The translations under genes and the position numbers were made by a program. The notes beneath the pieces are model-generated. The model did not search any database. It saw nothing but the letters and a program-made list of their open reading frames with translations, and was not told the DNA's origin. Below, in pieces: positions 22,714 through 57,834 of a DNA stretch of 64,000 nucleotides. This DNA is from Apostichopus japonicus (taxonomy: Eukaryota; Echinodermata; Holothuroidea; Aspidochirotida; Stichopodidae), in NCBI RefSeq assembly GCF_037975245.1, contig NC_092571.1, forward strand, positions 10,797,917-10,861,916, given 5' to 3'. Each line of letters opens with the position of its first letter. Position 1 is the stretch's first letter.

Positions 22714-22815
22714 TATGGGCGCAGACATCTTGATTAGGGGTGCTTGGCAGCGATTGGCTGAAACCCCAGACCTTCTCTAAGATCTATTTTGATTGGTGCT
22801 AACATACTGTGACAC
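22714..22815 (-). repeat. Dispersed repeat, inverted partner of 8555-8665
   Basis: This is the reverse complement of the 8555-8665 segment, including GGCGCAGACAT, GCGATTGGCTGAAACCC and TATTTTGATTGGTGCTAAC. It lies just outside the foldback element and is therefore host or older repeat sequence. Confidence 0.7.
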
Positions 22816-22973
22816 CGTCACCCTCTCGGTGACCATTCATCCTACGAATCTGTGCTCCAAACAACACGAATGTTAGGGAAACTACCATTTAGCGTTTTCT
22901 AGGGTTTTATTTTCGCAAATCTAGCGTTTTTTCGTCAACTGTCGCTGGTAACGCTGCCAGGAAGTACGTGGAA

Positions 22974-22982
22974 TTACATTTG
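22974..22982. other. Left target-site duplication of foldback element
   Basis: TTACATTTG occurs immediately before the left terminal repeat and again immediately after the right one (37912-37920). A 9-bp TSD fits Mutator/Foldback-type elements (typically 8-10 bp). Confidence 0.75.
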
Positions 22983-23113
22983 ATCGGGCTGAAGTTGGCG
23001 AACAATAACAGCGACCAATAGCAGCGAACGTTAAGCATTACCAGCGACCATTACCAGCGAACAATAAGAGCGAACACTAAGGGAAAATGATACTACGGAA
23101 AAGTTTAATGGCC
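22983..23113. repeat. Left TIR outer domain of foldback element
   Basis: About six imperfect 13-bp units (AGCGAACAATAAG, AGCGACCATTACC and similar) follow the terminal GGCTGAAGTTGGCGAA. GATACTACGGA at 23089-23099 closes the outer domain, and weaker similarity to the right arm continues for about 15 bases. Its inverted partner is 37791-37911. Confidence 0.85.
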
Positions 23114-23215
23114 ATTCCAACGTTACATAAGGGGAAAAAATGTTTTAAAAACAAAACTAATTGACACACTTATTTAACAGCAACATGGGTGTGTTATCAG
23201 ACAATATAAAGTTTC

Positions 23216-26200
23216 AAAATCTGTAACTCAGTATCATTGGGGTCCCCAAAGTAGCTGACGTCACCCTCTATCACCCCATCAAAACCATCTTGAGAGAAGA
23301 TGTCAGAGAGGGTGTTAATAACGCCAAAACTCGACGCGCAGTCTCATCTACCGTTTATATATGGTTTTTCAACCAGACTTTTGGCTAACAAATCAAATCT
23401 GTAACTCAGTATCATTGGTGTCCCCAAAGTAGCTGACGTCACCCTCTATCACCCCATACCAACAAACCTCGGGGGACGGTATCATTTAGGGTGTTATTAA
23501 CACCCAAACTCGACGCAAAGTCGCATTTACAGTTTATATACGGTTTTTCAACACGATTTTTGGCTAACAAATCAAATCTGTAACTCAGTATCATTGGGGA
23601 GCAAAAACGTAGCTGACGTCGCCAGCTATCACCCCATACTAACAAACCTCGGGGCACGGTATCATTTAGGGTGTTATTAACACCCAAACTCGACGCAAAG
23701 TCGCATTTACAGTTTATATACGGTTTTTCAACACGATTTTTGGCTAACAAATCAAATCTGTAACTCAGTATCATTGGGGAGAAAAAACGTAGCTGACGTC
23801 ACCAGCTATCACCCCATACTAACAAACCTCGGGGCACGGTATCATTTAGGGTGTTATTAACACCCAAACTCGACGCAAAGTCGCATTTACAGTTTATATA
23901 CGGTTTTTCAACACGATTTTTGGCTAACAAATCAAATCTGTAACTCAGTATCATTGGGGAGCAAAAACGTAGCTGACGTCGCCAGCTATCACCCCATACC
24001 AACAAACCTCGGGGCACGGTATCATTTACGGTGTTATTAACACCCAAACTCGAAGCAAAGTCTCATCTACCGTTTATATACGGATTTTCAACACGATTTT
24101 TGGCTAACAAAACAAATCTGTAACTCAGTATCATTGGGGTCCACAAGGTAGCTGACGTCACCCTCTATCACCCCATACCAACAAACCTCGGGGGACGGTA
24201 TCATTTACGGTGTTATTAACACCCAAATTCGACGCAAAGTCTCATCTACAATTTAAATACGGTTTTTCAACACGATTTTTGGCTAACAAATCAAATCTGT
24301 AACTCAGTATCATTGGGGTCCCCAAAGTAGCTGACGTCACCCTCTACCACACCACACCAACAAACCTCGGGGCACGGTATCATTTAGGGTGTTATTAACA
24401 CCCAAATTCGACGCAAAGTCTCATCTACAATTTAAATACGGTTTTTCAACACGATTTTTGGCAAACAAATCAAATCTGTAACTCAGCATCATTGGGGTCC
24501 CCAAAGTAGCTGACGTCACCCTCTACCACACCACACCAACAAACCTCGGGGGACGGTATCATTTATGGTGTTATTAACACCCAAACTCGTAGCAAAGTCT
24601 CATCTACCGTTTATATACGGATTTTCAACACGATTTTTGGCTAACAAATCAAATCTGTAACTCAGTATCATTGGGGTCCACAAAGTAGCTGACGTCACCC
24701 TCTATCACCCCATACCAACAAACCTCGGGGGACGGTATCATTTACGGTGTTATTAACACCCAAATTCGACGCAAAGTCTCATGTACAGTTTATATACGGT
24801 TTTTCAACACGATTTTTGGCTAACAAATCAAATCTGTAACTCAGTATCATTAGGGTACCCATAGTAGCTGACGTCACCAGCTGTCACCCCATACCAACAA
24901 ACCTCGGGGCACGGTATCATTTAAGGTGTTATTAACACCCAAACTCGGCGAAAAGTCGCATTTACAGTTTATATACGGTTTTTCAACACGATTTTTGGCT
25001 AACAAATCAAATCTGTAACTCAGTATCATTGGGGTCCCCATGGTAGCTGACGTCACCCTTTATCACCCATACCAACAAACCTCGGGGGACGGTATCATTT
25101 AGGGTGTTATTAACACCCAAACTCAACGCAAAGTCTCATTTACAGTTTATATACGGTTTTTCAACACGATTTTTGGCTAACAAATCAAATCTGTAACTCA
25201 GTATCATTGGTGTCCCCAAAGTAGCTGACGTCACCCTCTATCACCCCATACCAACAAACCTCGGGGCACGGTATCATTTAGGGTGTTATTAACACCCAAA
25301 CTCGACGCAAAGTCGCATTTACAGTTTATATACGGTTTTTCAACACGATTTTTGGCTAACAAATCAAATCTGTAACTCAGTATCATTGGGGTCCCCATGG
25401 TAGCTGACGTCACCCTTTATCACCCCATACCAACAAACCTCGGGGGACGGTATCATTTAGGGTGTTATTAACACCCAAACTCAACGCAAAGTCTCATTTA
25501 CAGTTTATATACGGTTTTTCAACACGATTTTTGGCTAACAAATCAAATCTGTAACTCAGTATCATTGGTGTCCCCAAAGTAGCTGACGTCACCCTCTATC
25601 ACCCCATACCAACAAACCTCGGGGGACGGTATCATTTAGGGTGTTATTAACACCCAAACTCGACGCAAAGTCGCATTTACAGTTTATATACGGTTTTTCA
25701 ACACGATTTTTGGCTAACAAATCAAATCTGTAACTCAGTATCATTGGTGTCCCCAAAGTAGCTGACGTCACCCTCTATCACCCCATACCAACAAACCTCG
25801 GGGGACGGTATCATTTAGGGTGTTATTAACACCCAAACTCGACGCAAAGTCGCATTTACAGTTTATATACGGTTTTTCAACACGATTTTTGGCTAACAAA
25901 TCAAATCTGTAACTCAGTATCATTTGGGAGCAAAAACGTAGCTGACTTCGCCAGCTATCACCCCATACTAACAAACCTCGGGGCACGGTATCATTTAGGG
26001 TGTTATTAACACCCAAACTCGACGCAAAGTCGCATTTACAGTTTATATACGGTTTTTCAACACGATTTTTGGCTAACAAATCAAATCTGTAACTCAGTAT
26101 CATTGGGGTCCCCAAAGTAGCTGACGTCACCCTCTATCACCCCATACCAACAAACCTCGGGGGACGGTATCATTGACGGTGTTATTAACACCCAAATTCG

Positions 26201-26420
26201 GCGCAAAGTCTCATCTACAATTTAAATACGGTTTTTCAACACGATTTTTGGCTAACAAATCAAATCTGTAACTCAGTATCATTGGGGAGCAAAAACGTAG
26301 CTGACGTCACCAGCTGTCACCCCATACCAACAAACCTCGGGGCACGGTATCATTTAGGGTGTTATTAACACCCAAACTCGACGCAACGTCTCATCTACCG
26401 TTTATATACGGTTTTTCAAA
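23216..26420 (-). repeat. Satellite B, left array: about 18 units of 179 bp
   Basis: Head-to-tail monomers in reverse orientation to the right array. Each unit has TCTGTAACTCAGTATCATTG, AGCTGACGTCA, CAAACCTCGGGG, GGGTGTTATTAACACCC, TTTATATACGG and CAACACGATTTTTGGC. Spacing is 179 bp with occasional 1-bp changes. The outermost unit (about 23216-23395) is diverged; inner units are more than 90 percent alike by eye. The array stops mid-monomer at its inner edge. Apparent 60-codon open frames end in every unit because 179 is not a multiple of three. Confidence 0.95.
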
Positions 26421-27414
26421 TGTTCAAATATTTTTCAATACTGCCAAAACTCCCGAATAATAAAGACAAAATAAACTGGTCTTGGTGATTTTCCACCAGC
26501 CAAGCCACTTGAAATTCACGCTACTGTACAAAGCTATGAATTCTTAAATGTTCATGTTCGGCAATAACCTGGACATTGCTGTTAGTTATACTCTACAGTG
26601 TAAAGAAAAATAGTCAGCTTACCATTGACTAGAGTCAACATTACATAAACTGCTACATAAACTGCATGACTATTTTATTTTTTATTTTTTTATGTGTGAT
26701 TCAGTTGTGACTTCATTTTTCCCTGCCCTGGTCTAGGTTATGTATAATGTTTAAATATTAACAATTTGGCATCTCTCGGTACTCAGAAAACACAAACTTC
26801 GTTCGCAACCCTTTGCTGTGTAAAGCAGGTATCGCGGTATCACTATACTGCAGCGCTTCCGTGATACCTGGAATGTGTTATTTGCCGTGGTTGCAGTTGG
26901 GAATAGGAATAGTGAACTGAAAAGTGTGAATATTTAGTCGATGGTTTTATTCACATTAAAAATATCAAAATGTTTCAGTAGTACTTGCTAACGTTGATTA
27001 TTTATAACAGCTATAACACGCATACACCCTTTGTTCATTATATGAAGTTTGTAATTTATAAAAAAAAAGTTGATCCCTTCATATCCAATATATGTCTTCT
27101 GAAACATCATGAAGGTACTTTTCTTGGAACATAAAAGGAGATTGAAGAATTAAGCCGACGATAGAAAACAAGATTTAGGTAACTGCATGCCTGTCGATTA
27201 TTCCTTTAAAGGAGTTGGTTAACGGTATAGTACGGATTAAACCGATAATGACTGAAACAAAAAACTTGAGGTTCCATCGGTTGTTGATTACACAGACTTG
27301 TGTAGCTACGTTTTGTTGACCTGGATTCAGGTCACTCTAAATGATACACCAATAGTTAAAAGTCGAAAGAGCTATTTTCAATTTTCATTCCAGTGAAGTT
27401 AGTGCATGTGTACA
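26421..27414. other. Foldback spacer, left part, no gene
   Basis: AT-rich sequence directly after the left satellite array. No transposase motif, exon or repeat is recognised. Confidence 0.45.
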
Positions 27415-28100
27415 CAGGCGCGTATCCAGGATTTTCAAACCCGGGGGGCGCGAATTACTAAGCGGAGCGCCACCATCGGTTGGCGCGCAGCGTACAAGAA
27501 AATTTCTTGTTTTGAAACCCCCCCAGATCACCGGAAACGGCACTTCTCGGGCTTGAAATGACCAACCAGATGTACACTTTTTGCCTGAGAACCAGGTATT
27601 TCCTAATAGTTTTTTTTTTCCATCCATAACCTTTTTGAAGTTTGTCAACCCGGCACACATCATGTTCGACCTTATGGCATCTCCTGTGGGTCTTTGCTTT
27701 TGTAGGTGATTCTACGTCGCGGCCCACAATACCCGTCAGCCCCACTTTTCAAGGTTTTAAGCCCCATATTTGTTCAGAATTTGAAAATTCACATTTCTCG
27801 TGAATAAACTCACTTCAAAACATACCCATAATGTTGTACAAAATTTCATCTATGGACAACCAATAATAGAAAAACTTCCTTCAACCCCTAACAGACCGGT
27901 CAAAATTGCACGAGTAGAGGGAAGTGTGATGCAGAATGTTGGTGAGAAATTTTCGAAAATTCAGACACAGTTAATTTAATGGTGTACAAACATTTAAACC
28001 TCTTATAACGGCTATTATAAAACTTGGTTGAAGGAAATGAAAAAATAGCAGATATTTCCGAAAGCGAACACTACACACATAGGCGTAGGAGGTGCGGCGG

Positions 28101-28483
28101 CAGTGGCGGAGCTAGGGGTATTGGTCAGGAGTGGCGAGAATGGTCTGTAGGAGCGCTTTCGACACTATCTAAGCGGAGCGCCACCACTGGTTGGCGCGTA
28201 GCGTACAGAAAATTTTTGAATAAAGATACTCCCTAGATCGCCGGAAATGACCCTTTCCGGGCCTGGCTAATTTGCAGATAAACGAAGAATAAGGTGTCAT
28301 CGCCAAATGACACCAACAAAATGTGAGAAATGTCAATAAGTAGATGAGAGCGCAATAAAAACGTTAATAATCTAGAATAAGTAAAAAGTGGTAAAGAGCT
28401 GAAAAAGGCGCCAGCAGTCCATTTGAGTCCGTCAGGGGGGGGGGGGGCATCCACCCCCCGACCGTATGGACGCTCCGCCACTG
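28101..28483. mobile_element. Nested hAT-like MITE (383 bp)
   Basis: Perfect 12-bp TIRs CAGTGGCGGAGC (28101-28112) and GCTCCGCCACTG (28472-28483) are flanked by TGCGGCGG and CGCGGCGG, an 8-bp TSD with one mismatch. It contains the GCGGAGCGCCACCA module and a 13-base poly-G run near 28436-28447. Non-coding and hAT-type by TIR and TSD. Confidence 0.85.
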
Positions 28484-29435
28484 CGCGGCGGGGGTGCAGC
28501 CCTTAATTCGCCATTACTAATGTAAAAGAGAGTTTTGACATAATTGGACCTCCATGCTTTTTATACATCTACATGAGACATGTCGTTGTTTACATTAGCA
28601 TCACGCGAAATACTGCGCAATTTGAACGGACCGTACGGTACATGATGGCATGCGATGTAATAACCGAGGCTTGCTTATATGATATTGACATGAACACGTT
28701 GAACGCGAAAATTTTTGGTTATTTTTTCAGGCAAGTCGGACAGTTTTGAGGCTTTTCATCCTGGAACGCCATTTTCATGCTCACTGATATGATGTGATAT
28801 CTGCTGTTTGCGTTACAAATTCGAACAGGCGCGTAGCGAGGAATTTGCCAAGGGAGGGGCGAAGCCTGTAGGCAAATTATCTAAGTGTAGCGCTACCATA
28901 GGTTGGCGCGAAGCGTACAAGAAAATTTTGGCAGAAAATGCCTCCCAGATCGCTGGAAATGGCACTACCCAGGACCATTTGTTAGCGCGAAGCGTACAAG
29001 CAAATTTTGGCCGAAAATGTCTCCCAGATCGCTGGAAATGACACTTCCCAGGCCTTGTAAGTTGCCTCTAAGCACTTTCTATTTTGAAATTACTTAGCGA
29101 TATCATTTAAAAAAATGCTGAATGGGGGGGGGCGGGCGGTCGCCCCCATCCCAAAATGCGTCATGTTCCCCGACGACACGGTCGAGTTCGAGACCAGCCA
29201 CAGTTGGTTTCATAGCACAATTCTACACACGCGTTATGATAGACCATATATAGTACATATATAGATCATTAGTGAGAGAGGAAAATGGAAACGTCAAAAA
29301 ATGGAGTTGTCGGTGTAAGGGGTAGGGTGAGTCACACTTTTACGAAATCATTGATCCGTCACTGGCTACCCTTCAGCGCTGTAATGATGTCACTGTTCCT
29401 CTTTCTCTCCCCGGTGTCTTCGCGTTTTTCTTTTA

Positions 29436-29558
29436 CTCCCTCCTTTTCTCCTTTTTCTCTCTTTCTTCTTTTTCTTTTCCCTTCCTTCCTCTCCTCCTCC
29501 TCTTTTTTCCCCTCTTTTTTCTTTTTTTCTTCTCTTTTTTTTCTCTCCTCTTTTTCTT
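29436..29558. repeat. Pure polypyrimidine tract of 123 bases
   Basis: Uninterrupted C and T on the + strand, preceded by a less pure C/T-rich stretch from about 29395. It lies just before the right end of the composite hAT-like element. A shorter C/T tract at about 31309-31343 has the same relative place in the element at 30764-31399, suggesting it is a family trait. Such tracts can form triplex (H-DNA) structures (general knowledge). Confidence 0.9.
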
Positions 29559-29605
29559 ACCTGGGGGGCGCGCGCCCCCAACGCCCCCCCCTGGATACGC
29601 ACCTG

Positions 29606-30763
29606 GTACACATCAATGAAAGATGACCAAACTTGATCATATAGTGTCCTTGAGTAGTGGGTCATATGGGTGTTTAGTAAGTTTATGCCAATGGTTATGC
29701 AGAGGTCATCTGGGTTCATTGTGTGAACCCACTCAAAATGCTTCTCCTATATGGGTGATCACCATGCTGGGTCATAGTGGTCACTTAATATGGAGACATA
29801 ATTATGGTGTGTTCAAAATATGGATGTCATGTTCTTCTCGTGCAGTTTGCATTGGATTATGAAGAATGTTGGTCATAGTGTTACTTGAACAGTAGTCTAT
29901 ATAGGGGTAAGAATTTGTGGCCAACGGTCATCCGGGCCCAAATTTGCGATTTTGTGTAAAACACTGTGCTTTTCTTCAGCAATAAAAGTTTTTTTTTAAA
30001 GAAATATGACTAAATTTTTCAATAAACTTTCAATTTTTTATAGTTCAAGAAGGTAAACCATAATTAGTATACCCTGTAATTTGTTTAAGAAGTCATGGTC
30101 TTTTCTCTTCTACGCTAGGCAAAGTGATAACTTAGATATTAATTTCATTACTTGTCGTTTGTTGCATGTCTATTAAAGAATTAGGTTCTTACCAGCTTAC
30201 TGCTGAATGCCGGAAGATCTATGAAGATTTATGTGGAATTTGCCTTCGTTTGTTTGTTGTTTGTTTGTTGTGTGTATGTGTAAGATAACTAAACAAGTCA
30301 GTGCAACTTAAAACTTCATGAAATGTACGTATAACTTAGGAAAGATATCAGCCCAGCTGCTTTTCACGTAGTTTTGGCCGTTATGCGTTTGATTGCAAAA
30401 ACTGGTACACAATCAAATCATCATCTTAACATTGTTGAAAATATGAAAATATCTCAACTACTTATACAGTAAGTAAACCTTGATTGAAAGCCATACTAAG
30501 TTGATATATACATTCCCCTTAGTATATACAAGAAACATATTGTATATGTGTTGTCAATGTAAAATGCCAGATATCGAGTCAATATATTAGGTCAATTTAT
30601 GTATTTCGAATCATGAGCCGTTTATTCTTTTTAATTCACTTTAACCAGTCATTTATAAAATAAGTTTTTTACGGCACATTTTGAACAAGGGGGTCAGATA
30701 CGTTATATCCTGTTATGGAACTGATGCTTTAACGCAAACGTATTTGAGAGAAATAACCAAACA
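29606..30763. other. Foldback spacer, middle part, no gene
   Basis: No recognised gene. Near 29640-29780 are several GGGTCAT/GGTCAT words, and short (GTTT)n appears near 30246-30270. Confidence 0.4.
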
Positions 30764-31399
30764 CAGGGGCGGATGCAGGATTTGTGACAGGGGGGGGGGG
30801 GTCTGACTGGTCCAGCCGCGAAGCGTACCAGGAAATTATTGGCTTTACAAACCCCCAAGATGGCCGGAAACGGCACTTCCCGAGTATTCTAAGCTGCATG
30901 TACCTAGCCTGAAAATATGGATCTCATGTCAATGTAATATATCTGTCATATTCAAGTCGAATCAGTCATTACTGTTAAATATGCACACTAAAAAATGCAT
31001 GTACTGTATAACAAGTGACGATTATTGATGGCGCTATGCAACTTTTGAAACTACTCAGTCTCATGAAGAATTCGTTGGCGCATCCTTTGCAGCCTACCAC
31101 TCTGCCACCTCACCGCCCCAAAAAATTCAAACACCACCTCAATTTTGAAACTTTTCGGTCTGAAAATTGAGATTTTTAGGCAATTTTGGCACGTGTAGCA
31201 CGCGTGCACACTATAGTTCATTTGACGGAAAAGACACACCTGGCTGACTTGTAAGGATAACCGCCCTTCTGACGTCCTACATGTTTAAAATTGGCGTTAA
31301 ATTTAATTATTTTTTCTCTCTCTTTTCTTTTCTCTTTTTTTTTTTGGCCAAGAGCAGGGGGGTCCGGACCCCCTGGACCCCCCTCTGGATCCGCGCCTG
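30764..31399. mobile_element. hAT-like non-autonomous element in foldback spacer
   Basis: The ends CAGGGGCGGATGCAGGA and TCTGGATCCGCGCCTG are imperfect inverted repeats. CAAACAC flanks both sides (30758-30764 and 31400-31406). Behind the left end a poly-G run and the module GCGAAGCGTACCAGGAAATT, then GATGGCCGGAAACGGCAC, match the copies at 16.9 kb and 27.5 kb. A C/T tract precedes the right end. Non-coding. Confidence 0.75.
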
Positions 31400-32151
31400 C
31401 AAACACCATGAATTTGATTATCGTGTTTGCAACTCGGTGGTCCAACGTCTTAAAACAATTCACATGCTTATATGCAATTAGGTTGATTGAAGACAATTTG
31501 AGAAAAATGCCATGATAACATTTATCGCTAACCAATTTATATGATATGTTTTGTCTGAACCAAATTTACAATTGGATCATTGTCATTAGACCCATCACAT
31601 GTTATCTCAAATAAGTTGTATGGATCCCATTTTAGGAAAAATCGGGCCTGAACTTTCACAATTTACTTATACTGTCGACATGATTTTGTTGTCTGTCAAA
31701 TAAATCCATCTTTAGTTCACGGCGATTAATTCCTTTGGTATTTAAAAGGAATACAACATTGCTAAGCCTTCTTTTCACCATTGCGGTTGCATATCGATAA
31801 ACTTCTACACACATACTGAATGAAGTTTGGAGACATATTAACTATTTTTTGACTAACTCTTGTAATACGATGTAATTTGACTGTACACTGACACTACAAT
31901 CTATTCCGAATTGGTCCGGATATACATGAGATCGGGGAATTTTCTTGTTTTTTCATTTCAACGATACTATATGAGTACGGTCATTTTATGTTTACTTATG
32001 TATCTTTGTATATAATATTCCGTATTCCGTAGAAAAAAATGATAGCTTTCCTGATAGCTTCATTTTACTTTACGGCTTTCTCAATTAATTTCTCTTCTTT
32101 CTTCAATGTGTGACATTCTCTATACACTGAGAAATATAAATCGGATAGCTT
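31400..32151. other. Foldback spacer, right part, no gene
   Basis: AT-rich sequence with no recognised feature, ending at the mid-monomer start of the right satellite array. Confidence 0.4.
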
Positions 32152-35100
32152 GCGTCGAGTTTGGGTGTTAATAACACCCTCAATGATACCGTGCCCCGAG
32201 GTTTGTTGGTATGTGGTGATAGCTGGCGAAGTCAGCTACGTTTTTGCTCCCAAATGATACTGAGTTACAGATTTGATTTGTTAGCCAAAAATCGTGTTGA
32301 AAAACCGTATATAAACTGTAAATGCGACTTTGCGTCGAGTTTGGGTGTTAATAACACCCTAAATGATACCGTCCCCCGAGGTTTGTTGGTATGGGGTGAT
32401 AGAGGGTGACGTCAGCTACTTTGGGGACACCAATGATACTGAGTTACAGATTTGATTTGTTAGCCAAAAATCGTGTTGAAAAACCGTATATAAACTGTAA
32501 ATGCGACTTTGCGTCGAGTTTGGGTGTTAATAACACCCTAAATGATACCGTCCCCCGAGGTTTGTTGGTATGGGGTGATAGAGGGTGACGTCAGCTACTT
32601 TGGGGACACCAATGATACTGAGTTACAGATTTGATTTGTTAGCCAAAAATCGTGTTGAAAAACCGTATATAAACTGTAAATGCGACTTTGCGTCGAGTTT
32701 GGGTGTTAATAACACCCTAAATGATACCGTGCCCCGAGGTTTGTTAGTATGGGGTGATAGCTGGCGACGTCAGCTACTTTGGGGACACCAATGATACTGA
32801 GTTACAGATTTGATTTGTTAGCCAAAAATCGTGTTGAAAAACCGTATATAAACTGTAAATGAGACTTTGCGTTGAGTTTGGGTGTTAATAACACCCTAAA
32901 TGATACCGTCCCCCGAGGTTTGTTGGTATGGGGTGATAGAGGGTGACGTCAGCTACTCTGGGGACCCCAATGATACTGAGTTACAGATTTGATTTGTTAG
33001 CCAAAAATCGTGTTGAAAAACCGTATATAAACTGTAAATGCGACTTTGCGTCGAGTTTGGGTGTTAATAACACCCTAAATGATACCGTCCCCCGAGGTTT
33101 GTTGGTATGGGGTGATAGAGGGTGACGTCAGCTACCATGGGGACCCCAATGATACTGAGTTACAGATTTGATTTGTTAGCCAAAAATCGTGTTGAAAAAC
33201 CGTATATAAACTGTAAATGCGACTTTGCGTCGAGTTTGGGTGTTAATAACACCCTAAATGATACCGTCCCCCGAGGTTTGTTGGTATGGGGTGATAGAGG
33301 GTGACGTCAGCTACTCTGGGGACCCCAATGATACTGAGTTACAGATTTGATTTGTTAGCCAAAAATCGTGTTGAAAAACCGTATATAAACTGTAAATGCG
33401 ACTTTGCGTCGAGTTTGGGTGTTAATAACACCCTAAATGATACCGTCCCCCGAGGTTTGTTGGTATGGGGTGATAGAGGGTGACGTCAGCTACCATGGGG
33501 ACCCCAATGATACTGAGTTACAGATTTGATTTGTTAGCCAAAAATCGTGTTGAAAAACCGTATATAAACTGTAAATGAGACTTTTCGCCGAGTTTGGGTG
33601 TTAATAACACCGTAAATGATACCGTGCCCCGAGGTTTGTTGGTATGGGGTGATAGCTGGCGACGTCAGCTACGTTTTTGCTCCCCAATGATACTGAGTTA
33701 CAGATTTGATTTGTTAGCCAAAAATCGTGTTGAAAAACCGTATATAAACTGTAAATGAGACTTTTCGCCGAGTTTGGGTGTTAATAACACCTTAAATGAT
33801 ACCGTGCCCCGAGGTTTGTTGGTATGGGGTGATAGAGGGTGACGTCAGCTACCATGGGGACCCCAATGATACTGAGTTACAGATTTGATTTGTTAGCCAA
33901 AAATCGTGTTGAAAAACCGTATATAAACTGTAAATGCGACTTTGCGTCGAGTTTGGGTGTTAATAACACCCTAAATGATACCGTGCCCCGAGGTTTGTTA
34001 GTATGGGGTGATAGCTGGCGAAGTCAGCTACGTTTTTGCTCCCAAATGATACTGAGTTACAGATTTGATTTGTTAGCCAAAAATCGTGTTGAAAAACCGT
34101 ATATAAACTGTAAATGCGACTTTGCGTCGAGTTTGGGTGTTAATAACACCCTAAATGATACCGTCCCCCGAGGTTTGTTGGTATGGGGTGATAGAGGGTG
34201 ACGTCAGCTACTTTGGGGACACCAATGATACTGAGTTACAGATTTGATTTGTTAGCCAAAAATCGTGTTGAAAAACCGTATATAAACTGTAAATGCGACT
34301 TTGCGTCGAGTTTGGGTGTTAATAACACCCTAAATGATACCGTCCCCCGAGGTTTGTTGGTATGGGGTGATAGAGGGTGACGTCAGCTACTTTGGGGACA
34401 CCAATGATACTGAGTTACAGATTTGATTTGTTAGCCAAAAATCGTGTTGAAAAACCGTATATAAACTGTAAATGCGACTTTGCGTCGAGTTTGGGTGTTA
34501 ATAACACCCTAAATGATACCGTGCCCCGAGGTTTGTTAGTATGGGGTGATAGCTGGCGACGTCAGCTACTTTGGGGACAGCAATGATACTGAGTTACAGA
34601 TTTGATTTGTTAGCCAAAAATCGTGTTGAAAAACCGTATATAAACTGTAAATGCGACTTTGCGTCGAGTTTGGGTGTTAATAACACCCTAAATGATACCG
34701 TCCCCCGAGGTTTGTTGGTATGGGGTGATAGAGGGTGACGTCAGCTACTCTGGGGACCCCAATGATACTGAGTTACAGATTTGATTTGTTAGCCAAAAAT
34801 CGTGTTGAAAAACCGTATATAAACTGTAAATGCGACTTTGCGTCGAGTTTGGGTGTTAATAACACCCTAAATGATACCGTCCCCCGAGGTTTGTTGGTAT
34901 GGGGTGATAGAGGGTGACGTCAGCTACCATGGGGACCCCAATGATACTGAGTTACAGATTTGATTTGTTAGCCAAAAATCGTGTTGAAAAACCGTATATA
35001 AACTGTAAATGCGACTTTGCGTCGAGTTTGGGTGTTAATAACACCCTAAATGATACCGTCCCCCGAGGTTTGTTGGTATGGGGTGATAGCTGGCGACGTC

Positions 35101-37440
35101 AGCTACGTTTTTGCTCCCCAATGATACTGAGTTACAGATTTGATTTGTTAGCCAAAAATCGTGTTGAAAAACCGTATATAAACTGTAAATGCGACTTTGC
35201 GTCGAGTTTGGGTGTTTATAACACCCTAATTGATACCGTCCCCCGAGGTTTGTTGGTATGGGGTGATAGAGGGTGACGTCAGCTACCATGGGGACCCCAA
35301 TGATACTGAGTTACAGATTTGATTTGTTAGCCAAAAATCGTGTTGAAAAACCGTATATAAACTGTAAATGAGACTTTTCGCCGAGTTTGGGTGTTAATAA
35401 CACCGTAAATGATACCGTGCCCCGAGGTTTGTTGGTATGGGGTGATAGCTGGCGACGTCAGCTACGTTTTTGCTCCCCAATGATACTGAGTTACAGATTT
35501 GATTTGTTAGCCAAAAATCGTGTTGAAAAACCGTATATAAACTGTAAATGAGACTTTTCGCCGAGTTTGGGTGTTAATAACACCTTAAATGATACCGTGC
35601 CCCGAGGTTTGTTGGTATGGGGTGATAGAGGGTGACGTCAGCTACCATGGGGACCCCAATGATACTGAGTTACAGATTTGATTTGTTAGCCAAAAATCGT
35701 GTTGAAAAACCGTATATAAACTGTAAATGCGACTTTGCGTCGAGTTTGGGTGTTAATAACACCCTAAATGATACCGTCCCCCGAGGTTTGTTGGTATGGG
35801 GTGATAGAGGGTGACGTCAGCTACTTTGGGGACACCAATGATACTGAGTTACAGATTTGATTTGTTAGCCAAAAATCGTGTTGAAAAACCGTATATAAAC
35901 TGTAAATGAGACTTTGCGTTGAGTTTGGGTGTTAATAACACCCTAAATGATACCGTCCCCCGAGGTTTGTTGGTATGGGGTGATAGAGGGTGACGTCAGC
36001 TACTCTGGGGACCCCAATGATACTGAGTTACAGATTTGATTTGTTAGCTAACAATCGTGTTGAAAAACCGTATATAAACTGTAAATGCGACTTTGCGTCG
36101 AGTTTGGGTGTTAATAACACCCTAAATGATACCGTCCCCCGAGGTTTGTTGGTATGGGGTGATAGAGGGTGACGTCAGCTACCATGGGGACCCCAATGAT
36201 ACTGAGTTACAGATTTGATTTGTTAGCCAAAAATCGTGTTGAAAAACCGTATATAAACTGTAAATGCGACTTTGCGTCGAGTTTGGGTGTTAATAACACC
36301 CTAAATGATACCGTCCCCCGAGGTTTGTTGGTATGGGGTGATAGAGGGTGACGTCAGCTACGTTTTTGCTCCCCAATGATACTGAGTTACAGATTTGATT
36401 TGTTAGCCAAAAATCGTGTTGAAAAACCATATATAAACTGTAAATGCGACTTTGCGTCGAGTTTGGGTGTTAATAACACCCTAAATGATACCGTGCCCCG
36501 AGGTTTGTTAGTATGGGGTGATAGAGGGTGACGTCAGCTACGTTTTTGCTCCCCAATGATACTGAGTTACAGATTTGATTTGTTAGCCAAAAATCGTGTT
36601 GAAAAACCGTATATAAACTGTAAATGCGACTTTGCGTCGAGTTTGGGTGTTAATAACACCCTAAATGATACCGTCCCCCGAGTTTTGTTGGTATGGGGTG
36701 ATAGCTGGTGACGTCAGCTACCATGGGGACCCCAATGATACTGAGTTACAGATTTGATTTGTTAGCCAAAAATCGTGTTGAAAAACCGTATATAAACTGT
36801 AAATGCGACTTTGCGTCGAGTTTGGGTGTTAATAACACCGTAAATGATACCGTCCCCCGAGGTTTGTTGGTATGGGGTGATAGAGGGTGACGTCAGCTAC
36901 GTTTTTGCTCCCCAATGATACTGAGTTACAGATTTGATTTGTTAGCCAAAAATCGTGTTGAAAAACCATATATAAACTGTAAATGCGACTTTGCGTCGAG
37001 TTTGGGTGTTAATAACACCCTAAATGATACCGTGCCCCGAGGTTTGTTAGTATGGGGTGATAGAGGGTGACGTCAGCTACGTTTTTGCTCCCCAATGATA
37101 CTGAGTTACAGATTTAATTTGTTAGCCAAAAATCGTGTTGAAAAACCGTATATAAACTGTAAATGCGACTTTGCGTCGAGTTTGGGTGTTAATAACACCC
37201 TAAATGATACCGTCCCCCGAGTTTTGTTGTTATGGGGTGATAGCTGGTGACGTCAGCTACGTTTTTGCTCCCCAATGATACTGAGTTACAGATTTTATTT
37301 GTTTGCCAGATGTGGTTTTGAATAACTGTATATATATGCTACGTTTTACTTTCAGTTGCCGAGTTAATTGTTAATATCCCCCTGCCCGACATCGTCCCTC
37401 ACGGTTGTTGGCATACTTTGGTAGAGTGTAATGTCAGCTT
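32152..37440 (+). repeat. Satellite B, right array: about 29 units of 179 bp
   Basis: Same monomer as 23216-26420, in the opposite orientation. In this orientation each unit reads TGACGTCA (e.g. 32407-32414), CCAAT (32430-32434), TATATAAA (32487-32494) and GGGTGTTAATAACACCC (32522-32538). Variant units (TTTTTGCTCC type versus GGGGACACC type) recur in the same order about 1,792 bp apart, i.e. every ten monomers, showing higher-order structure. The last unit (about 37290-37440) is strongly diverged. The short open frames in each unit have no stable frame across units. Confidence 0.95.
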
Positions 37441-37790
37441 TAACGTTCACCCCACCCTTCTTCATGTTTCCCATTAAGCTTTGTTTCCAAATATGTTATC
37501 TTTTACCCTAAACTTACGCTTTTCGCTGATATTTGGGGCAGGTCTGATATTTTAAGAGCTATAATTTTGCTTTACCACGATAATGAGTTAGGCCATACCC
37601 TGACTTTTGGGATATTTTATACCCCGTTCCATAATTACGAGTTTGTCGGGTTTGAATCTCTTATAATAAATTATTTAATGCATGGAACGTCCAAAAGCCT
37701 GTCTTTCCCTCCTAATTGCAATCGATTGAAAGCATTCTATCATTCAATTTGCTTTAAACACATCATTTTTGCCACATGGCCCATTACGAA
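37441..37790. other. Unique inner segment between right array and right TIR
   Basis: About 350 bases with no counterpart of similar length on the left side, where only about 100 bases separate TIR and array. No coding feature is recognised. Confidence 0.5.
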
Positions 37791-37911
37791 GGCCACTACA
37801 CAACTCCGTAGTATCATTTGCACTTTCTAGCATTTTTTGGTCGCCCTTATTGGTCGCTCTTATTGTTCGCTACTATTGTTCGCTCTTATTGTTCGCCAAC
37901 TTCAGCCAGAT
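37791..37911. repeat. Right TIR outer domain of foldback element
   Basis: TCCGTAGTATC at 37805-37815, followed by about five inverted 13-bp units (CTTATTGTTCGCT and similar) and the terminal TTCGCCAACTTCAGCCAGAT. It mirrors 22983-23113. Confidence 0.85.
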
Positions 37912-37920
37912 TTACATTTG
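37912..37920. other. Right target-site duplication of foldback element
   Basis: TTACATTTG, identical to 22974-22982. Confidence 0.75.
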
Positions 37921-38603
37921 AGACACGAAACAGCTCGCTGCAGAGATCTGTTTCATACAGATTAGTTTTCCTAGCAATCACTCGGTTTATTTTTCCCCAT
38001 ATTTTCAAATACCATTTAGTATCCATAGAAGCAAGATCTCCGGTACATCGATCACTCATCGACTTAAATAGGTAAAATATCTGAATAAGAGTAGTGCACG
38101 CCGCCCCAGTTCAGGACTAGGCCTAGTCGGATTGTACAAAAATCCTAGACACATCACGTAGGCTTGTCAGTGGCCAACATGCTTGACCTGGGTATTCTAC
38201 AATTGCTATGCTATATTACTTTTTATTAGTTATTACTTGGCTTAGGCCTACGTTTTCTAGGCTGGAAGAACCACATCTCCTGTTTTGATAAACTTCCCCA
38301 AGTTTAGTGCTATCCAACAACAAAATATATGCAGTGCATTGATTAGCAAGCTTAGTGAAACTAGGCCTAGTGTCAAACACATGGCCATGCAATAGGCCTA
38401 CTGTATGTTTATCATAAGCAGCTGCAAAGCCATCACAAACAGTCAAAATAAATTAAGCATGGATAAAAAAGTTCTCATTGTGACAAAAGGAGCCCAACAA
38501 TCTATCTCTGCAATCACAGGTCTATAAGTCAACTTTTTACCTTAATACTCATGAAATCATGGAAGCTAGGTCTCTCCTGAAAGTGGAATGTCAACTAAGC
38601 ATA
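37921..38603. other. Non-coding gap between two mobile elements
   Basis: AT-rich with AGGCCTA words; no gene recognised. Confidence 0.4.
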
Positions 38604-42289: not shown

Positions 42290-44400
42290 GTTCCTTGCTT
42301 TAGCAAAAGGAACCTATGCAGTCAGGTTGGCGTGTGTGTGTGTGTAGGCATGTATGTATGGGTGTGTATGTGTGTGTGTGTGTGTCTGTGACACTTGCTT
42401 GGGTACGCTCTATCTCAATAAGGGAATGTTGGATTGAGGCCAAACTTGGACTATAGATCCGCCATATGGAGAAGGTGTGCCCTATTGTTTCTGGTGCCCA
42501 CAAAGGTCACCAAAGGTCAGTTATGGTCCAAAAGCCGAAAATATTAAAACTGCAATAACTCCCAGTGCCAATGTGTGACAAGATTGATATTTTGGGACAA
42601 GTTGTGAACTGTTTAGGGGAGCATTTTCAAACTTAACGGTCATGTGATCCGAGGTCACCAAAGGTCAATTAATGATAAAAAACTAGTATTTTTGCGATAA
42701 CTTGAGAACGAAATGTCCGTTAGGGTTGGGAGTTGCTTCAATGTTATCCAATTGTCGACCCGCATCTGGGTGACCCTTGACCTCAATTTGACCTCTGGTG
42801 ACCTTTACGTGTTTTGGGGGATTTTTACAGTTTTGATGCTATTTTCAGATGTCAAAAGTACCTTCTGATCATAAATGTCAATAGGTTGACCCTGTGTGAC
42901 CTTTATGTGCGAAGTTATATGGGGTCAAAGTTTTTCGGTCGGAGTTAGGATGGTTGTACAGACTTGTCGTTTTGTTTTTTGGAATCAGGAGATTAAACTA
43001 CATCTGAAACCAAGGTCAAAAGGTCAAAGGTCACATTAGAAAAAATGTGCTTATTTTGGGAGGAAACGAGCAAAGAAGGAAATGTTTGGTTTTGATGCTA
43101 GATTTGGATATGAAAGGTACCTTCCGATCAAAAATGTCAATTGGTTACACCCGTGTGACCTTCGTGTGCGAAGTTATACGAGGTCAAAGTTAATTTTCAG
43201 ACATTTAATGCAACAACTCCCAGTTCCAAGGTGTGACATGGTTGATATTTTTGGACAAGTTGCAAATGGTATAGGGGAATATTTTCAAACTTAAGGGTCA
43301 TGTGATCCGAGGTCACCAAAGGTCAATTAATCATAAAAAACTAGTATGTTTGCGGTAACTTGAGAACAAATTGTCCGTTAGGGTTGGGAGTTGCTTCAAT
43401 GTAATCCAATTGTCGACCCGCATCTGGGTGACCCTTGACCTCAATTTGACCTCTGGTGACCTTTTCGTGTTTTGTGGATTTTTAGTTTCGATGCTATTTT
43501 CAGATGTTAAAGGTACCTTCTGATCATAAATGTCAATAGGTTGACCCCCATGTGACCTTCGTGTGCGAAGTTATATGAGGTCAAAGTTAATTTTCAGACA
43601 TTTAATGCAATGATAAAAAACTAGTATTTTTGCGATAACTTGAGAACAAATTGTCTCTAAGGGCTGGGAGTTGCTTCAATGAAATCCAATTGTCAACCCG
43701 CATCTGGGTGACCCTTGACCTCAATTTGACCTCTGGTGATCTTTTCGTGTTTTGTGGATTTTTACAGTTTCGATGCTATTTTCAGATGTTAAAGGTACCT
43801 TCTGATCATAAATGTCAATGGGTTGACCCCCATGTGACCTTCGTGTGCGAAGTTATATGAGGTCAAAGTTAATTTTCAGACATTTAATGCAATAACTCCC
43901 AGTGCCAAGGTGTGACAAGGTTTATTTTTTTGGACAAGTTGCAAATGGTATAGGGAAATATTTTCAAACTTAACGGTCATGTGGTCCAACGTCACCAAAG
44001 GTCAGCTAATGTTAAAAAAGTATTATTTTGTGGGGAGAAAATGGGCAAAGAAAAAATGTTTGAATTTTTACAGTCATGCTCTATTTAGGTCTCACCGATC
44101 AAAAATGTCAATTGGTTGACCTTCGGGTGACCTTTGTGTGTGAAGTTATGTATACAAGTTCAAAGTTAATTTTTTTTAATTTAATGCAATTAAATCTCAA
44201 TGCCAAGGTGTGACATGGTTGATATTTTGGGACAAGTTGTGAACAGGGTGGTGGAACATTTTGAAACTTAAAGGTCATGTCATCTGAGGTCACCAATGTT
44301 ATCATATCTGTTGACACGCTTGTAGGTCTATTATATTTCTTACATTTTCGACGCCATATTTAGATCTCAAAAGTGCCTTTTGATCCAAAATCCGATCACA
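42290..44400 (+). repeat. AGGTCA-rich tandem repeat, ~660-bp units
   Basis: Opens with TTCCTTGC and CAAAAGGAACC and a (GT)n stretch (about 42331-42386). CAATAACTCCCAGTGCCAA-type unit starts recur at 42551, 43209, 43889 and, degenerate, at 44187. A ~280-bp internal piece is duplicated (GATAAAAAACTAGTATTTTT at 42672, 43332 and 43612). Perfect direct repeats of AGGTCA with 4-bp spacing occur at 42504-42519, 42652-42667 and 43310-43325; a DR2 plus DR1 triplet occupies 43013-43033. Related blocks are at 13050-13990 and 62190-62960. Small open frames inside are not conserved between units. Confidence 0.85.
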
Positions 44401-44923: not shown

Positions 44924-45550
44924 CATGTACAAAGCATCTTAGCCCATAATTTGCACTTGGGTCATTCCCTGTCATATCAACCAGTGGTCCCCAGGTGACC
45001 CTCTCAGATTTTGATGAAACATCATCAGAATGATTGAGTATGTCCCAAATGAACACAAAAAAATTGAAATCAAACTCCATGTCGTTTTCGAGATATAGCC
45101 GGTTGAAATTTGGTCAAGGCGGCCATTTTGTGCTTGCGCGATTCGCGAAAAGTGACTTTTGTGATGAAGTTTCATCTAAATCTGAGAGGGTCGTTAGTGC
45201 GTGAACATGTAACCCCTTTGGTACATGCTTTCAATCTTTAAGACAATGTGAACTGTATGAAATTGTTGTGTCTTTCTCAAGTGCTAAACTTGTGCATCTT
45301 GGACTGTATTAAACTTTGGCTACTAATTTAGCTGAGCCACACCATGGTGAATTGATTGGACTTTTAATTAGCGTTTTTTACCAAAATAAAGATCTTCAGT
45401 GCATTGTAAGTAATAATGAAATACACATGTTGTGTCGTTCTGGTAAACGTTCAGAATATTTACCGTATCAACTTTGCTTGCTGTGTACAGCTCATGAAGA
45501 CAGTTTTTTTCCTGTGTTACTTTTGAGTTGCAGAAGGTTCTAGCAACTTA
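44924..45550. other. Non-coding stretch, no gene recognised
   Basis: Contains AAGGCGGCCATTTTG near 45116, a YY1-type word in reverse orientation. An open frame of 75 codons at 45316-45543 does not resemble the expected upstream part of DFFB. Confidence 0.4.
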
Positions 45551-46030
45551 AGTAAATGGGACTTAGGCCTGATAACAGTATGTTTATGTCCATGGTGGTT
45601 ATTATTCAACCAATACAGTATTAGTGAGTGACATCATCATCCTATAAGTAAATGGGACTTAGGCCTGATTACAGTATGTTTATGTCCATGGAGGTTATTA
45701 TTCAACCAATACAGTAGCAGTGAGTGACATCATCATCCTATAAGTAAATGGGAATTAGGCCTGATTACAGTATGTTTATGTCCATGGTGGTTATTATACA
45801 ACCAATACAGTATTAGTGAGTGACATCATTATCTGTAAATGGGAATTAGGCCTGATTACACTATGTTTATGTCCATGGTGGTTATTATACAAAAAATGTA
45901 CAGTAGTAGCAGTGAGTGACATCATTATCCTATAATTAAATGGGAATTAGGCCTGATTACAGTATGTTCATGGTGGTTATTCTACAACCAATACAGTAGC
46001 AGCGAGTGACATCATCATCCTATAAGTAAA
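45551..46030. repeat. ~96-bp tandem repeat, five units
   Basis: Units begin AGTAAATGGGACTTAGGCCT near 45551, 45647 and 45743, and with small changes near 45833 and 45934. They share TATGTTTATGTCCATGG, CAACCAATACAGTA and GAGTGACATCATCAT. Spacing varies from 90 to 100 bp. Non-coding minisatellite about 1.1 kb upstream of a DFFB exon. Confidence 0.9.
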
Positions 46031-47130
46031 TGATAATTTGGAGGTTGTTACTTTGTGTAGTTCTGTAAACGTAAAATCCAGATTGCATTGTAACTTAATA
46101 CCTGCAAATAGATCAAATGACAAATTGTCATCACCCTCTATCACTTTGCAAAACCTATACAACTCATATACTGTCTTAACAGTGGTCATTCATTTCTTCG
46201 AACAACCACAGGTTAATTAAGACTTGGTTTTACACAAAAAATCCTAGTTTACCCCAGACATTTTAATCATATTTTTTCTATATCAACTTGTAAATGTTTG
46301 GCTATATTGAATCAATCCAAAGTACATTACTTGAAGTAACTTCTGTTAAAATAACTGTATTCCTGTGGTATGCATAATATTGACCATGACTACTACCGTA
46401 GGTTGTGTAAGTACTCTTTCTAAGTCATCTTTGTACTAGGCAAAATTTGGTTTTAAAAATATCCCCAGAATTTGAGAATATTTGGCATAACACAAGTTCA
46501 AATTGGCATGTGTTACACATGTCTATAACTTTTTATTAAATTATTATATTTTTGTTCTGCAAGCACAGTGGTAAAATATAACTCTTAAACTATCTAGCCA
46601 TACCACATTTGACCATGTTCTGTACATTTCCAATTTCAACCCAAATGTTACATTTCCCTTGACCCTTCCCACTTAGTTGACAGTGTAGGGAGTCAAAATA
46701 CGTTAAATTTAATGAAGTTGTCCATATCTCAAGTTAGGGGCAAATATTGAGATGAGATGTTCAGTCAGCAGTGTGTAATTGTTTCTCTCTGATGTAAGTT
46801 TCACATTGGTTGTCACCAGAAAATTCTTTTAACTTAATTGATGATAATAAACTGAGGAACTACAGGCTGCCTTTGAATATCTGCATTTCAAGTTCATAGT
46901 TTTGCATATTTGACAACACTAATTTATTCCAGGTAATAAATAAAAGGTGCAGTGATGTGAAATATAAGTTTCTCTAGTTAATATTTAAGATTAAAGAAAT
47001 ATGGAAGCAGATGAAGGTGAGATTGAACTTGCCATAGTCTTATATATTACCATTCTCACCTGTCAAAGTAAATTAAGTCATGTTTCTAAAGGACATCTGG
47101 TTCTAATTGATCAACTTCCATTCATTACAG
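46031..47130 (+). other. Presumed DFFB intron, upstream of the first recognised exon
   Basis: No CIDE-N-type exon can be recognised. A 27-base segment at 46991-47017 lies between AG and GTGAG, is open, and would join in phase with the next exon, but its acceptor has a weak pyrimidine tract; I leave it as a possible microexon only. The 3-prime end supplies TTCATTACAG, the acceptor of exon A. Confidence 0.4.
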
Positions 47131-49299: not shown

Positions 49300-49450
49300 T
49301 GTTATGTCAGTTATAATTTATATATTTCCCGTTGTTTTCCCTCTCTCCCCTGCAGGTATGGTGGGGCTTTATTGTATGCCATTAGTATAGAGTTATTAGC
49401 ATAGACAGTGGAATTGACATTAACAAAGTATTCATACTAGCCAATTATCA
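49300..49450 (+). repeat. Copia left LTR
   Basis: 151 bp from TGTTATGTCAG to CCAATTATCA, with the canonical TG...CA ends. Copies 2-151 are identical to the right LTR. TTATAATTTATATAT near 49311-49325 could serve as a TATA region. Confidence 0.93.
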
Positions 49451-49462
49451 TGGTAGCAGAGC
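49451..49462 (+). other. Copia primer-binding site (tRNA-iMet type)
   Basis: TGGTAGCAGAGC directly after the LTR. The first 11 bases are complementary to the 3-prime end of animal initiator methionine tRNA including CCA, the usual primer for Ty1/copia elements. Confidence 0.8.
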
Positions 49463-49548
49463 GAGTTTCCTAAAGACCAACAGAAGCAGAAGATAATAAA
49501 GACTCTGAATAACCGTATTACAGTGAAAGTGCACAAGAAGAAAAGAAG

Positions 49549-50430
49549 ATGGCTGAAGCAATAAAAGAACAAATGATGGGGCCACCAGTATGGGACACCA
49601 AATCAACTTCGTATGAAGATTGGAAGTTTGACGTTACATTATGGGCACAGTTTACCAAAGCGGAGAAGAAAAGAGAGGGTTTCATGCTGTACAGCAAGCT
49701 GCCAACAAGCAGAGGAGTAAATGAGAAAGTGAGGCTAGCAATACAAAATGAAGAGATAAAGATAAATGAGGAAAATGCCATTGACCAAATCTTTGTGGTG
49801 CTTGACAAATTTTATAAGAAAGATGATTTGAGCACAGTCTGTGAAACATGGTGTTCGTACAAGAACCTGAAGAAAACAAGCGGCGAAACGATGGAGGAGT
49901 GCCTGAACGAGTATGAGAAGAAAGTGAAAGAGCTAAAGAAAGAAGGCGTAACTCTCCCAGAAGTTGTTTTAGCAATGCAGTTGATAGATGGTGCTGGTTT
50001 AGGCAAGAAAGAAAAACAAATCGTGCTGACAGCAGTTGACTACTCCAAGAAGGAGGAAATGTATGATCAGATGAAGCAAGCGTTAAGGAAGTTTTTTGGT
50101 GATCAAGCTATGTCTAGTAGAGAAAGAGTGAATGAACCACTGATGAAGGAAGAATCAGCACATAGTACAGAGGTACAGGCAGAGTCAGAAGAAGCAGCGT
50201 ATTATACACGAGGACGAAATCCTTATCGTGGAAGTAACTATGCAGGTTACAGGGGAAGAGTGAGATATAATCGTGGTGCTGGAAGAGGTAATCAAAGCAG
50301 AAGAGGAAGTCAAACAAGTAAACCAACAAACAGCCAACCAGGAGAATCCAACAGAGGAGGATTTCAGAGTTATGTTAGAAGAAGAAACCCACATAATGCT
50401 GATGGGAATTACAGTACCGCTCACGTATAA
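49549..50430 (+). pseudogene. Copia gag, interrupted by a DNA transposon
   Basis: Open frame of 293 codons, of which only the part to 50411 is native; the last codons are read from the inserted transposon. The start ATGGCTGAAGC is 98 bases after the LTR. The central part resembles the copia gag (UBN2/Retrotran_gag-like) fold: an acidic/basic helical region with W-C-x-Y-K and M-E-E-C-L-N-E-Y type words around codons 100-130. Codons 220-275 are arginine/glycine rich (RGRNPYRGSNY, RGAGRGNQSRRG) and would bind RNA. The CCHC zinc knuckle that should follow lies beyond the insertion at 53957-53998. Function: capsid-like particle protein. Copy disabled. Confidence 0.88.
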
Positions 50431-50589
50431 CTGGACATGTGTACGCGCACAGAATCGTATAAACACGTATAAACACGTACACTCGCGTATAAACTCGTTG
50501 ACAAAGAAATTGCCGCGTAGAGGCCGCGTAGACACCGCGTATAATCCCTCTACGAGTTTATACGCAGGAAATGCTATTGTGCTCAATGA

Positions 50590-52985: not shown

Positions 52986-53215
52986 CCATGGTGAAGTGAA
53001 CCTGGGCAAGTTCGAATGTCGATGACCAATTTATGTTCCGTGACTAATGTCAATGGGAATTATGTGTGTAAAAAATCGGGTCTTTCCACGTGTTATATAT
53101 ATATATATATAGAAGTTTTACGTAAGCGGAGCGAAATTCGTGGAGGCTTCTTGATTGTGAGGAAGCACTAATACCTAAGCCTTAATATTTGTGGAAAAAA
53201 TCGTAAGGGTTTTCT
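52986..53215 (-). repeat. 230-bp module shared with 39730-39962
   Basis: Reverse-complement relative of 39730-39962. Shared words include CCATGG, GACATTCGAACTTG, GTGTGTAAAAA, a longer (AT)n run, TTTTACGTAAGCGGAGCGAA and TTGTGAGGAAGCA. It sits about 730 bases from the right TIR of its host element, whereas the partner sits about 1.1 kb from the left TIR of the other element. Confidence 0.8.
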
Positions 53216-53949
53216 TCTGAAAATATTTTTTAATAGTAGGCCTAACCAAAACCTTGTCATTGCTTTTGGGGAAGTCAGATCTTCAAGTTCAAATATATAT
53301 TTTTTTTTTCGTTAAACGGTTATCGTGGTTTTCTTGCGAGGTATATACGGCGTAACTTTCGATGAAGGCTAAAAGGTAGGATAGGCCAAGGCCTACCTTG
53401 TTCTCATTAATTGTTACCTACATTCAATTTAATGCCCAACGGGAGGAACTCGTATAAATATTAACAGACTGGTGCACATTGTAATTGATAAAAGTTTCCA
53501 TGCTGAAGTTTTCCTGCACTGATTGTATCGATCGTTTGTACTTCTAGTAGCGCTGTTTTCTTTGTTATTCTTATTCTTAACGGCTTAAGTATATGCTTAC
53601 TCTGTGGTTGAATATTTTGGAAAGGCTTAGGAGACATTACTTGATGTTGAGTTTACCGACTCTTTTGTGCATCACAGTTTATTCTAACCCATAGAAGCTC
53701 TTCTATATAAAGCGGCTGAGAATATCCTACGTTTACAGATTATACGAGATTGTACGTCTTTACACGCGTATAATCCCTATTCAGGTGCACTGAAGCGAAG
53801 CCCTAAGCCGCGTAGACACGGCGTAGACGCCGCGTAGACACCGCGTAGAAAGTCGCGTACAGAAACGTATAACATCGTATAATCGCGTATAATCGCGTAG
53901 ATAAACGTAGAGTATACGTCTACGCGAGTTATACGTGAGCGGTACTGTA

Positions 53950-54028
53950 CATGAAATGTCATACTTGTGAGTCAATAATGCATTTCAAGAGAGATTGTCC
54001 GCATGCACAGTCAAGGAAAAACAAGTAA
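53950..54028 (+). pseudogene. Copia gag 3-prime end with CCHC zinc knuckle
   Basis: Continuation of gag after the transposon, in the same frame once one TA is removed. It encodes a perfect retroviral-type knuckle CX2CX4HX4C (cysteines encoded at 53957, 53966 and 53996; histidine at 53981), then stops at TAA 54026-54028. Pol continues in the minus-one frame. G AAA AAC at 54016-54022 is a possible slippery heptamer, imperfect because its first three bases are not identical. Confidence 0.82.
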
Positions 54029-54978: not shown

Positions 54979-54981
54979 TAG

Positions 54982-56816: not shown

Positions 56817-56819
56817 TAG

Positions 56820-57390: not shown

Positions 57391-57562
57391 AATCAACATT
57401 GCAGAGATCCAAAGAATGATGGCTACAGGAGAAGTTCAGACAATTGAATGGGTACAGAGTAAACTCCAGTTGGCAGACGCTTTAACCAAGAGAGGAGCAG
57501 ATAGCGATTGGCTTTTGGAATGCCTCAGCTTTGGTGAACTGAAAATGGATCGCGATGAATGA
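57371..57562 (+). pseudogene. Copia pol part 5: RNase H C-terminus
   Basis: Encodes HEKHLRINIAEIQ and later LQLADALTKRGAD, the typical end of copia RNase H, and stops at TGA 57560-57562. The frame differs from part 4 by one base. Confidence 0.88.
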
Positions 57563-57820: not shown

Positions 57821-57834
57821 GATGCGGGGGAGTA
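57821..57834 (+). other. Copia polypurine tract
   Basis: GATGCGGGGGAGTA immediately before the right LTR, the expected place of the plus-strand primer. Confidence 0.75.

Follow-up and report, generated by a model that had tools for sequence, protein, structure and literature searches.

INTRODUCTION

The sea urchin TU element is an echinoderm foldback transposon, and its outer inverted repeats consist of tandemly repeated short units (~15 bp). To our knowledge, TU has a target site duplication (TSD) of 8 bp and carries no satellite-sized inner arrays. Tetris, a non-autonomous foldback element of Drosophila virilis, has a TSD of 8 to 10 bp and terminal inverted repeats (TIRs) of up to 1,735 bp, in which an outer flanking part is followed by inner tandem repeats of ~220 bp that expanded into satellite arrays; a 37-bp stretch is common to the TIR and the repeat, and large arrays were suggested to block transposition (PMC4079207). 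In Tribolium castaneum, the 164-bp satellite monomer TCsat23 lies in the inverted termini of the 9.5-kb Rehavkus-1_TC, mostly as five and eight monomers (PMC10218199). Rehavkus elements have a TSD of 9 bp, TIRs of 26 to 400 bp, and a minisatellite, and are given for arthropods and annelids only in the cited part of their source (PMC6446971). Galileo, of the P superfamily, has TIRs of up to ~1.26 kb; the Drosophila Galileo F carries two or three ~210-bp tandem repeats in some of its TIRs, in numbers unequal between the ends, and chimeric copies are attributed to exchange (PMC3573991). Tetris, pDv, and Xmix are tabulated in a review as elements from whose TIRs or terminal repeats satellites derive (PMC9659126). 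Our comparisons extend to the cited portions of these papers.

Among the open-licence papers listed by our searches, we found no account of this element in a sea cucumber, and neither PMC5638244 nor PMC13228809 contains the word "satellite" or "foldback" in its main text. Here, we describe an element from a 64,000-nucleotide stretch of DNA (the window); there is good support for reading it as a foldback DNA transposon whose arms are satellite-like.

RESULTS

A flush 9-bp duplication and inverted ends bound the element

The bounded unit occupies 22983-37911 (14,929 bp), and an exact 9-bp TSD, TTACATTTG, abuts both of its ends (Table 1). For a given pair of flush 9-mers, the probability of a chance match is ~5.5e-6 at the base composition of the window. 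We scanned 22800-38100 for inverted repeats, using exact 11-mer seeds, requiring flush direct repeats of 5 bp or longer, and excluding pairs that touch the arrays. This produced four pairs, namely, the one with the 9-bp TSD and others with direct repeats of 6, 5, and 5 bp; mononucleotide shuffles of the same scan produced 0 pairs in 5 of 5 trials. The TIRs are imperfect and partly composed of 13-bp units. The first 53 bp of the unit match the reverse complement of its last 53 bp at 88.7% identity, and a looser alignment gives 123/174 matches (71%). Tandem Repeats Finder (TRF) reports 13-bp-period arrays at both element ends. The six units of the left end are interrupted by a 7-bp break. With up to 2 mismatches allowed, the right end has four units, and at that tolerance the window holds 4 further scattered matches.

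Directly outside the left TSD, at 22869-22956, lies a stretch that resembles the left TIR but is reversed, in the orientation that a right end would have. Its likeness to the left TIR has a P of 0.001 by shuffling (0/553 control windows equally high), and its likeness to the right TIR has a P of 0.03 (5/553 control windows as high); in a finer scan, it barely exceeds background. Judged from its sequence, this stretch may represent the eroded terminus of an older relative.

Table 1. Coordinates of the element and its parts in the window
Feature	Position	Strand	Remark
Left TSD, TTACATTTG	22974-22982	.	Exact match to right TSD
Left TIR: six 13-bp units (22998-23082) and inner motif AAATGATACTACGGA (23085-23099)	22983-23100	+	
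Left subterminal DNA, TIR to array; monomer likeness not significant (P 0.45, 0.25)	23101-23216	+	
Left arm: 18 monomers of 179 bp	23217-26419	+	
Inner left-arm stretch close to right-arm monomers, including 620 bp exact	25066-26114	+	
Spacer, 5,730 bp, with nested short inverted-repeat elements	26420-32149	.	
Nested element: 16-bp inverted ends (CAGGCGCGTATCCAGG, one mismatch), 5-bp direct repeat GTACA	27415-29605	.	
Nested MITE-like element: 13-bp perfect inverted ends, 6-bp direct repeat GCGGCG	28100-28484	.	
Right arm: 29 inverted monomers of 179 bp, innermost truncated (R29)	32150-37334	-	
Strongly diverged monomer, outer edge of right array	37348-37494	-	Alignment score 65
Right TIR: four 13-bp units (37845-37896), inner motif 37805-37819	37805-37911	-	
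Right TSD, TTACATTTG	37912-37920	.	Exact match to left TSD

Two mirror arrays of one 179-bp monomer form the arms

TRF assigns a period of 179 bp to both arrays, with 17.9 copies at 93% matches on the left (3.2 kb) and 28.9 copies at 95% on the right (5.2 kb). The arrays stand in opposite orientation, with inverted pairs of up to 1354 nt at 97%, so that, read from either end toward the middle, both arms present the same monomer in one direction. Beyond the right array, on its outer side, the strongly diverged monomer was found by alignment only, with a score of 65 against a maximum of 37 in 200 shuffles, and brings that array to ~5.3 kb. On the left, the most diverged monomers are the outermost (L01, 82.7% to consensus) and the innermost (L18, 86.1%). 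Within the right arm, segmental repeats recur at shifts of 1434 and 1792 bp, or about 8 and 10 monomers. The figures of the original prediction, with a 9-bp TSD, matching TIR ends with 13-bp repeats, and opposed 179-bp arrays of ~3.2 and ~5.3 kb around a 5.7-kb spacer, agree with what we measured. The measurements support a single foldback-type insertion with TSD and TIR borders and one tandem repeat in both arms.

Signs of exchange between the arms

We compared monomers within and between the arms, leaving the edge monomers L01, L18, and R29 out of both the mean identities and the tree. Monomers of the left arm are on average 93.2% identical to one another, those of the right arm 95.4%, and pairs across the two arms 94.2% (90.9, 93.5, and 92.1% untrimmed). 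The longest exact stretch between arms measures 620 bp, 25495-26114 being the reverse complement of 33855-34474; the longest exact stretches within one arm are 573 bp on the right and 251 bp on the left. Exact monomer matches between the arms form three sets: L02 and L14 equal R09, R17, and R27; L15 equals R18 and R28; and L16 equals R19. The consecutive left monomers L14-L16 therefore equal the consecutive right monomers R17-R19. A sliding comparison dips at ~24747-25017, and we rejected these dips as divergence, attributing them to monomer length differences in an ungapped comparison.

In a tree built from 44 of the 47 monomers, with bootstrap values that had not settled, the arms do not separate cleanly. 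The best tree needs 8 changes of arm label, and well-supported branches force 4 of these; the mean for shuffled labels is ~12. Shuffling the labels reached so low a count in only 7 to 11 of 500 trials, indicating some clustering of monomers by arm.

Private variants were defined without L01, L18, and R29 and also without L11-L16, the stretch under test. Left-private variants are present in 6 of the 10 defining left monomers and in 0 of the 6 monomers L11-L16, and one right-private variant is present in 2 of these 6. L02-L04 and L10, which lie beyond the stretch presumed to be exchanged, are likewise without left-private variants, and the edge monomer L01 has one right-private and two left-private variants; the borders of the presumed stretch are therefore soft. 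Taken together, the exact identity between arms and the private-variant pattern in L11-L16 suggest that right-arm sequence entered the inner left arm through a conversion-like exchange. Alternatively, the 620-bp identity could be common ancestry retained in the source element, or the arms could have exchanged sequence before insertion, within the source copy. TIR divergence is not usable as a clock.

Long inverted arrays are difficult to assemble, and 620 bp of exact identity between arms would also fit an array that is a misassembled duplicate or a mirror layout that joins two loci. We consider such an artefact very unlikely. The arms differ in length, with 18 versus 29 monomers, each has variants private to it, their inner and outer edges differ, and one TSD spans the whole unit. 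The unequal lengths, the private variants, and the common TSD make a simple assembly duplication unlikely.

The spacer and the class of the element

Thirty-one stop-to-stop frames, each 55 aa or longer, overlap the spacer. Nine of these 31 frames and one right-flank frame were compared with Pfam and gave no match at E up to 1. This copy is probably non-autonomous or dead. A search with Rfam (gathering thresholds) and ARAGORN across the window gave no match. Besides the two nested elements of Table 1, we noted by eye another short nested element at 30765-31400. Its inverted ends resemble those of 27415-29605, and CAAACA may be its 6-bp direct repeat; the seeded inverted-repeat scan missed it.

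The nested elements in the spacer and the TIR-like stretch outside the left TSD point to a complex history of the locus. They would fit a locus in which the mirror arrays derive from two older repeats or from an inversion and in which the TSD and TIRs are coincidental or of other origin. We regard this as scarcely credible, since a flush 9-bp TSD and 53-bp inverted ends at 88.7% identity enclose both arrays.

The TSD lies flush with the inverted ends (9 bp, exact), and the long inverted arms hold tandem repeats, both of which are marks of the foldback class. The element also shows two features of Mutator/Rehavkus elements: a TSD of ~9 bp and, as in Rehavkus, minisatellite- or satellite-like repeats adjoining the TIR. 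Rehavkus transposase is a MULE-type DDE enzyme with a PHD finger, and a non-autonomous copy would be without it. The 9-bp TSD fits Mutator/Rehavkus, with which we call the element compatible and no more than that. We also considered a Helitron or Helentron with central tandem repeats. Such elements are not known to have TIRs or TSDs, and the TIRs and 9-bp TSD do not fit this candidate.

As to superfamily only, the element might instead be a foldback of the P/Galileo or hAT type. The TSD of hAT and P elements is 8 bp and that of Galileo is 7 bp, whereas here it is 9 bp. In the cited passages, Rehavkus has 9 bp (PMC6446971) and Tetris 8 to 10 bp (PMC4079207), and these lengths also count against a P or hAT origin. 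On the other side, the foldback-like Galileo, a member of the P superfamily, has internally repetitive TIRs, and TIR length is described as unreliable for classification (PMC3573991). On balance, we find a P/Galileo or hAT assignment rather unlikely.

Other repeats in the window

A second tandem array with a 179-bp period lies at 2077-3984 (10.7 copies, 90%). One of its monomers was compared with the foldback-arm monomer, and no relation was seen (P 0.57, 0.67). By eye, several monomers of this array contain an inverted pair, GCACGCTTTGGACC / GGTCCAAAGCGTGC, and the region 800-6000 yielded no pair of inverted ends that abuts a direct repeat of 5 bp or longer. A tandem array with a 105-bp unit (2.8 copies), possibly clipped by the window edge, occupies 1-300 at the start of the window. 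Partial direct repeats of ~90 to 380 bp cluster at 42551-44296, and a 96-bp unit is present in five copies at 45549-46032.

A Ty1/copia-type element extends over 49301-57986. Its long terminal repeat matches, 49301-49451 and 57836-57986, are identical over 151 bp, and a possible 5-bp TSD is one base off their ends. The coding region is split across several stop-to-stop frames and has RVT_2 and rve domains, the latter slightly below the curated cutoff. Among the best 120 of 325 matches, the top-scoring one is an unnamed protein (60% over 91%), and the best named ones are Apostichopus japonicus predicted proteins, at 93% (56% of the query covered) and 97% (33% covered). A sea cucumber is on these grounds the probable source of the window, with the caveat that mobile elements mark species only weakly.

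Origin of the monomer

The motif AATGATAC is found at both TIRs and twice in each monomer. It occurs 91 times in the arrays and only once in the window beyond the arrays and TIRs, at 27340 in the spacer. Of the 33 9-mers that the two TIRs share, 2 are present in the monomer, with a P of 0.006 in 5000 dinucleotide shuffles for a motif chosen post hoc; against the whole left TIR alone, P is 0.03. Since AATGATAC was chosen after being noticed, we count this sharing as a hint only. Elsewhere in the element, the monomer shows no significant likeness to the left flank 23100-23216 (P 0.45, 0.25). Against the right flank 37500-37830, P is 0.64, and in array orientation a borderline 0.05, which we did not use. 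Likeness at the inner spacer edges is no better than in shuffles. In a self-comparison of the window, with array-to-array pairs skipped, the arrays have no match beyond the element at E 1e-10. An exact scan of viral contigs with the monomer string gave no match, and the 22-bp TIR string had 0 exact matches in prokaryotic and viral contig collections, both of which are little informative here. A protein-level search with one reading frame through the array gave no candidate.

The prediction had left it open whether the satellite was captured or generated. The presence of AATGATAC twice per monomer and at both TIRs is a weak hint, read from the sequence, that the monomer was generated together with the element. 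Under capture, which concerns the origin of the arms only, an independent genomic 179-bp satellite of the host would have entered both arms. That the whole monomer lacks significant likeness to the left subterminal DNA speaks for it, as does the presence in the window of a second, unrelated array with the same period. Yet capture needs two events in mirror orientation, or one event followed by arm copying, the monomer shares 9-mers with the TIRs, and a diverged monomer lies between the right array and the right TIR. We therefore think capture possible but doubtful.

DISCUSSION

Our best explanation, to which we give a probability of roughly 0.8, is that this locus is one insertion of a non-autonomous foldback transposon with two-tier arms, whose arrays grew by exchange or slippage and whose arms have been exchanging sequence. 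Counting against it, we saw neither another copy nor an empty site nor an autonomous partner. The transposase that mobilized such an element in trans was most likely Mutator/Rehavkus-like and encoded at another site, and the single insertion here would have made the 9-bp TSD that we observe. The outer tier of each arm consists of the 13-bp units at the extreme ends, which are presumed transposase-binding sites; the inner tier is the array of 179-bp monomers. In the right arm, the segmental repeats of ~8 and ~10 monomers suggest that the arrays were enlarged by unequal exchange or replication slippage. Across the palindrome, the arms would trade sequence by a conversion-like exchange, as the exact stretches common to them suggest.

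A bolder reading is that the 15-kb unit moved with its kilobase-long arrays, that it seeds satellite loci, and that conversion across the palindrome keeps its arms alike. We hold this combination to be unlikely as a whole. If true, large arrays would be no bar to transposition, contrary to what was suggested in the cited account of Tetris (PMC4079207). The element may stand midway on a path from foldback transposon to satellite. Further copies would tell the spread of a satellite by transposition from later local growth and would show whether conversion keeps mirror arms alike.

The novelty that the original prediction attached to a foldback with tandem-repeat arms was overstated. Such termini, and their growth into satellites, are already published (PMC4079207, PMC10218199), and in the passages cited Tetris, TCsat23/Rehavkus-1_TC, and Galileo all carry tandem repeats within inverted termini, which makes the kind a known one. 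The present element looks like a large, well-preserved example of it. What is new here is the probable sea cucumber host, the size of the arms in a copy that is still bounded, the two-tier 13-bp/179-bp arm, and the signs of exchange.

Its closest likenesses are structural. TU and the present element, the latter probably from an echinoderm too, are both foldbacks with short-unit outer repeats, a comparison by description rather than by sequence. Tetris is likened by structure, not sequence, and probably belongs to a different phylum; from the cited description, it shares the foldback form, the tandem repeats inside inverted termini, and a stretch common to TIR and repeat, of which AATGATAC is reminiscent here. 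Against Tetris TIRs of at most 1,735 bp, the arms with their arrays measure ~3.4 and ~5.8 kb here, in a copy that is still bounded by its TSD. Galileo, as far as the cited passages go, is similar in its long TIRs, in internal tandem repeats that are unequal between the ends, and in the exchange inferred for it. Compared with Rehavkus-1_TC as cited, the present element has 18 and 29 monomers and no transposase match in 9 of its 31 spacer frames. Its arrays are thus several times longer than in the bounded insect copies compared, as these are described in the cited portions, and yet its borders are intact.
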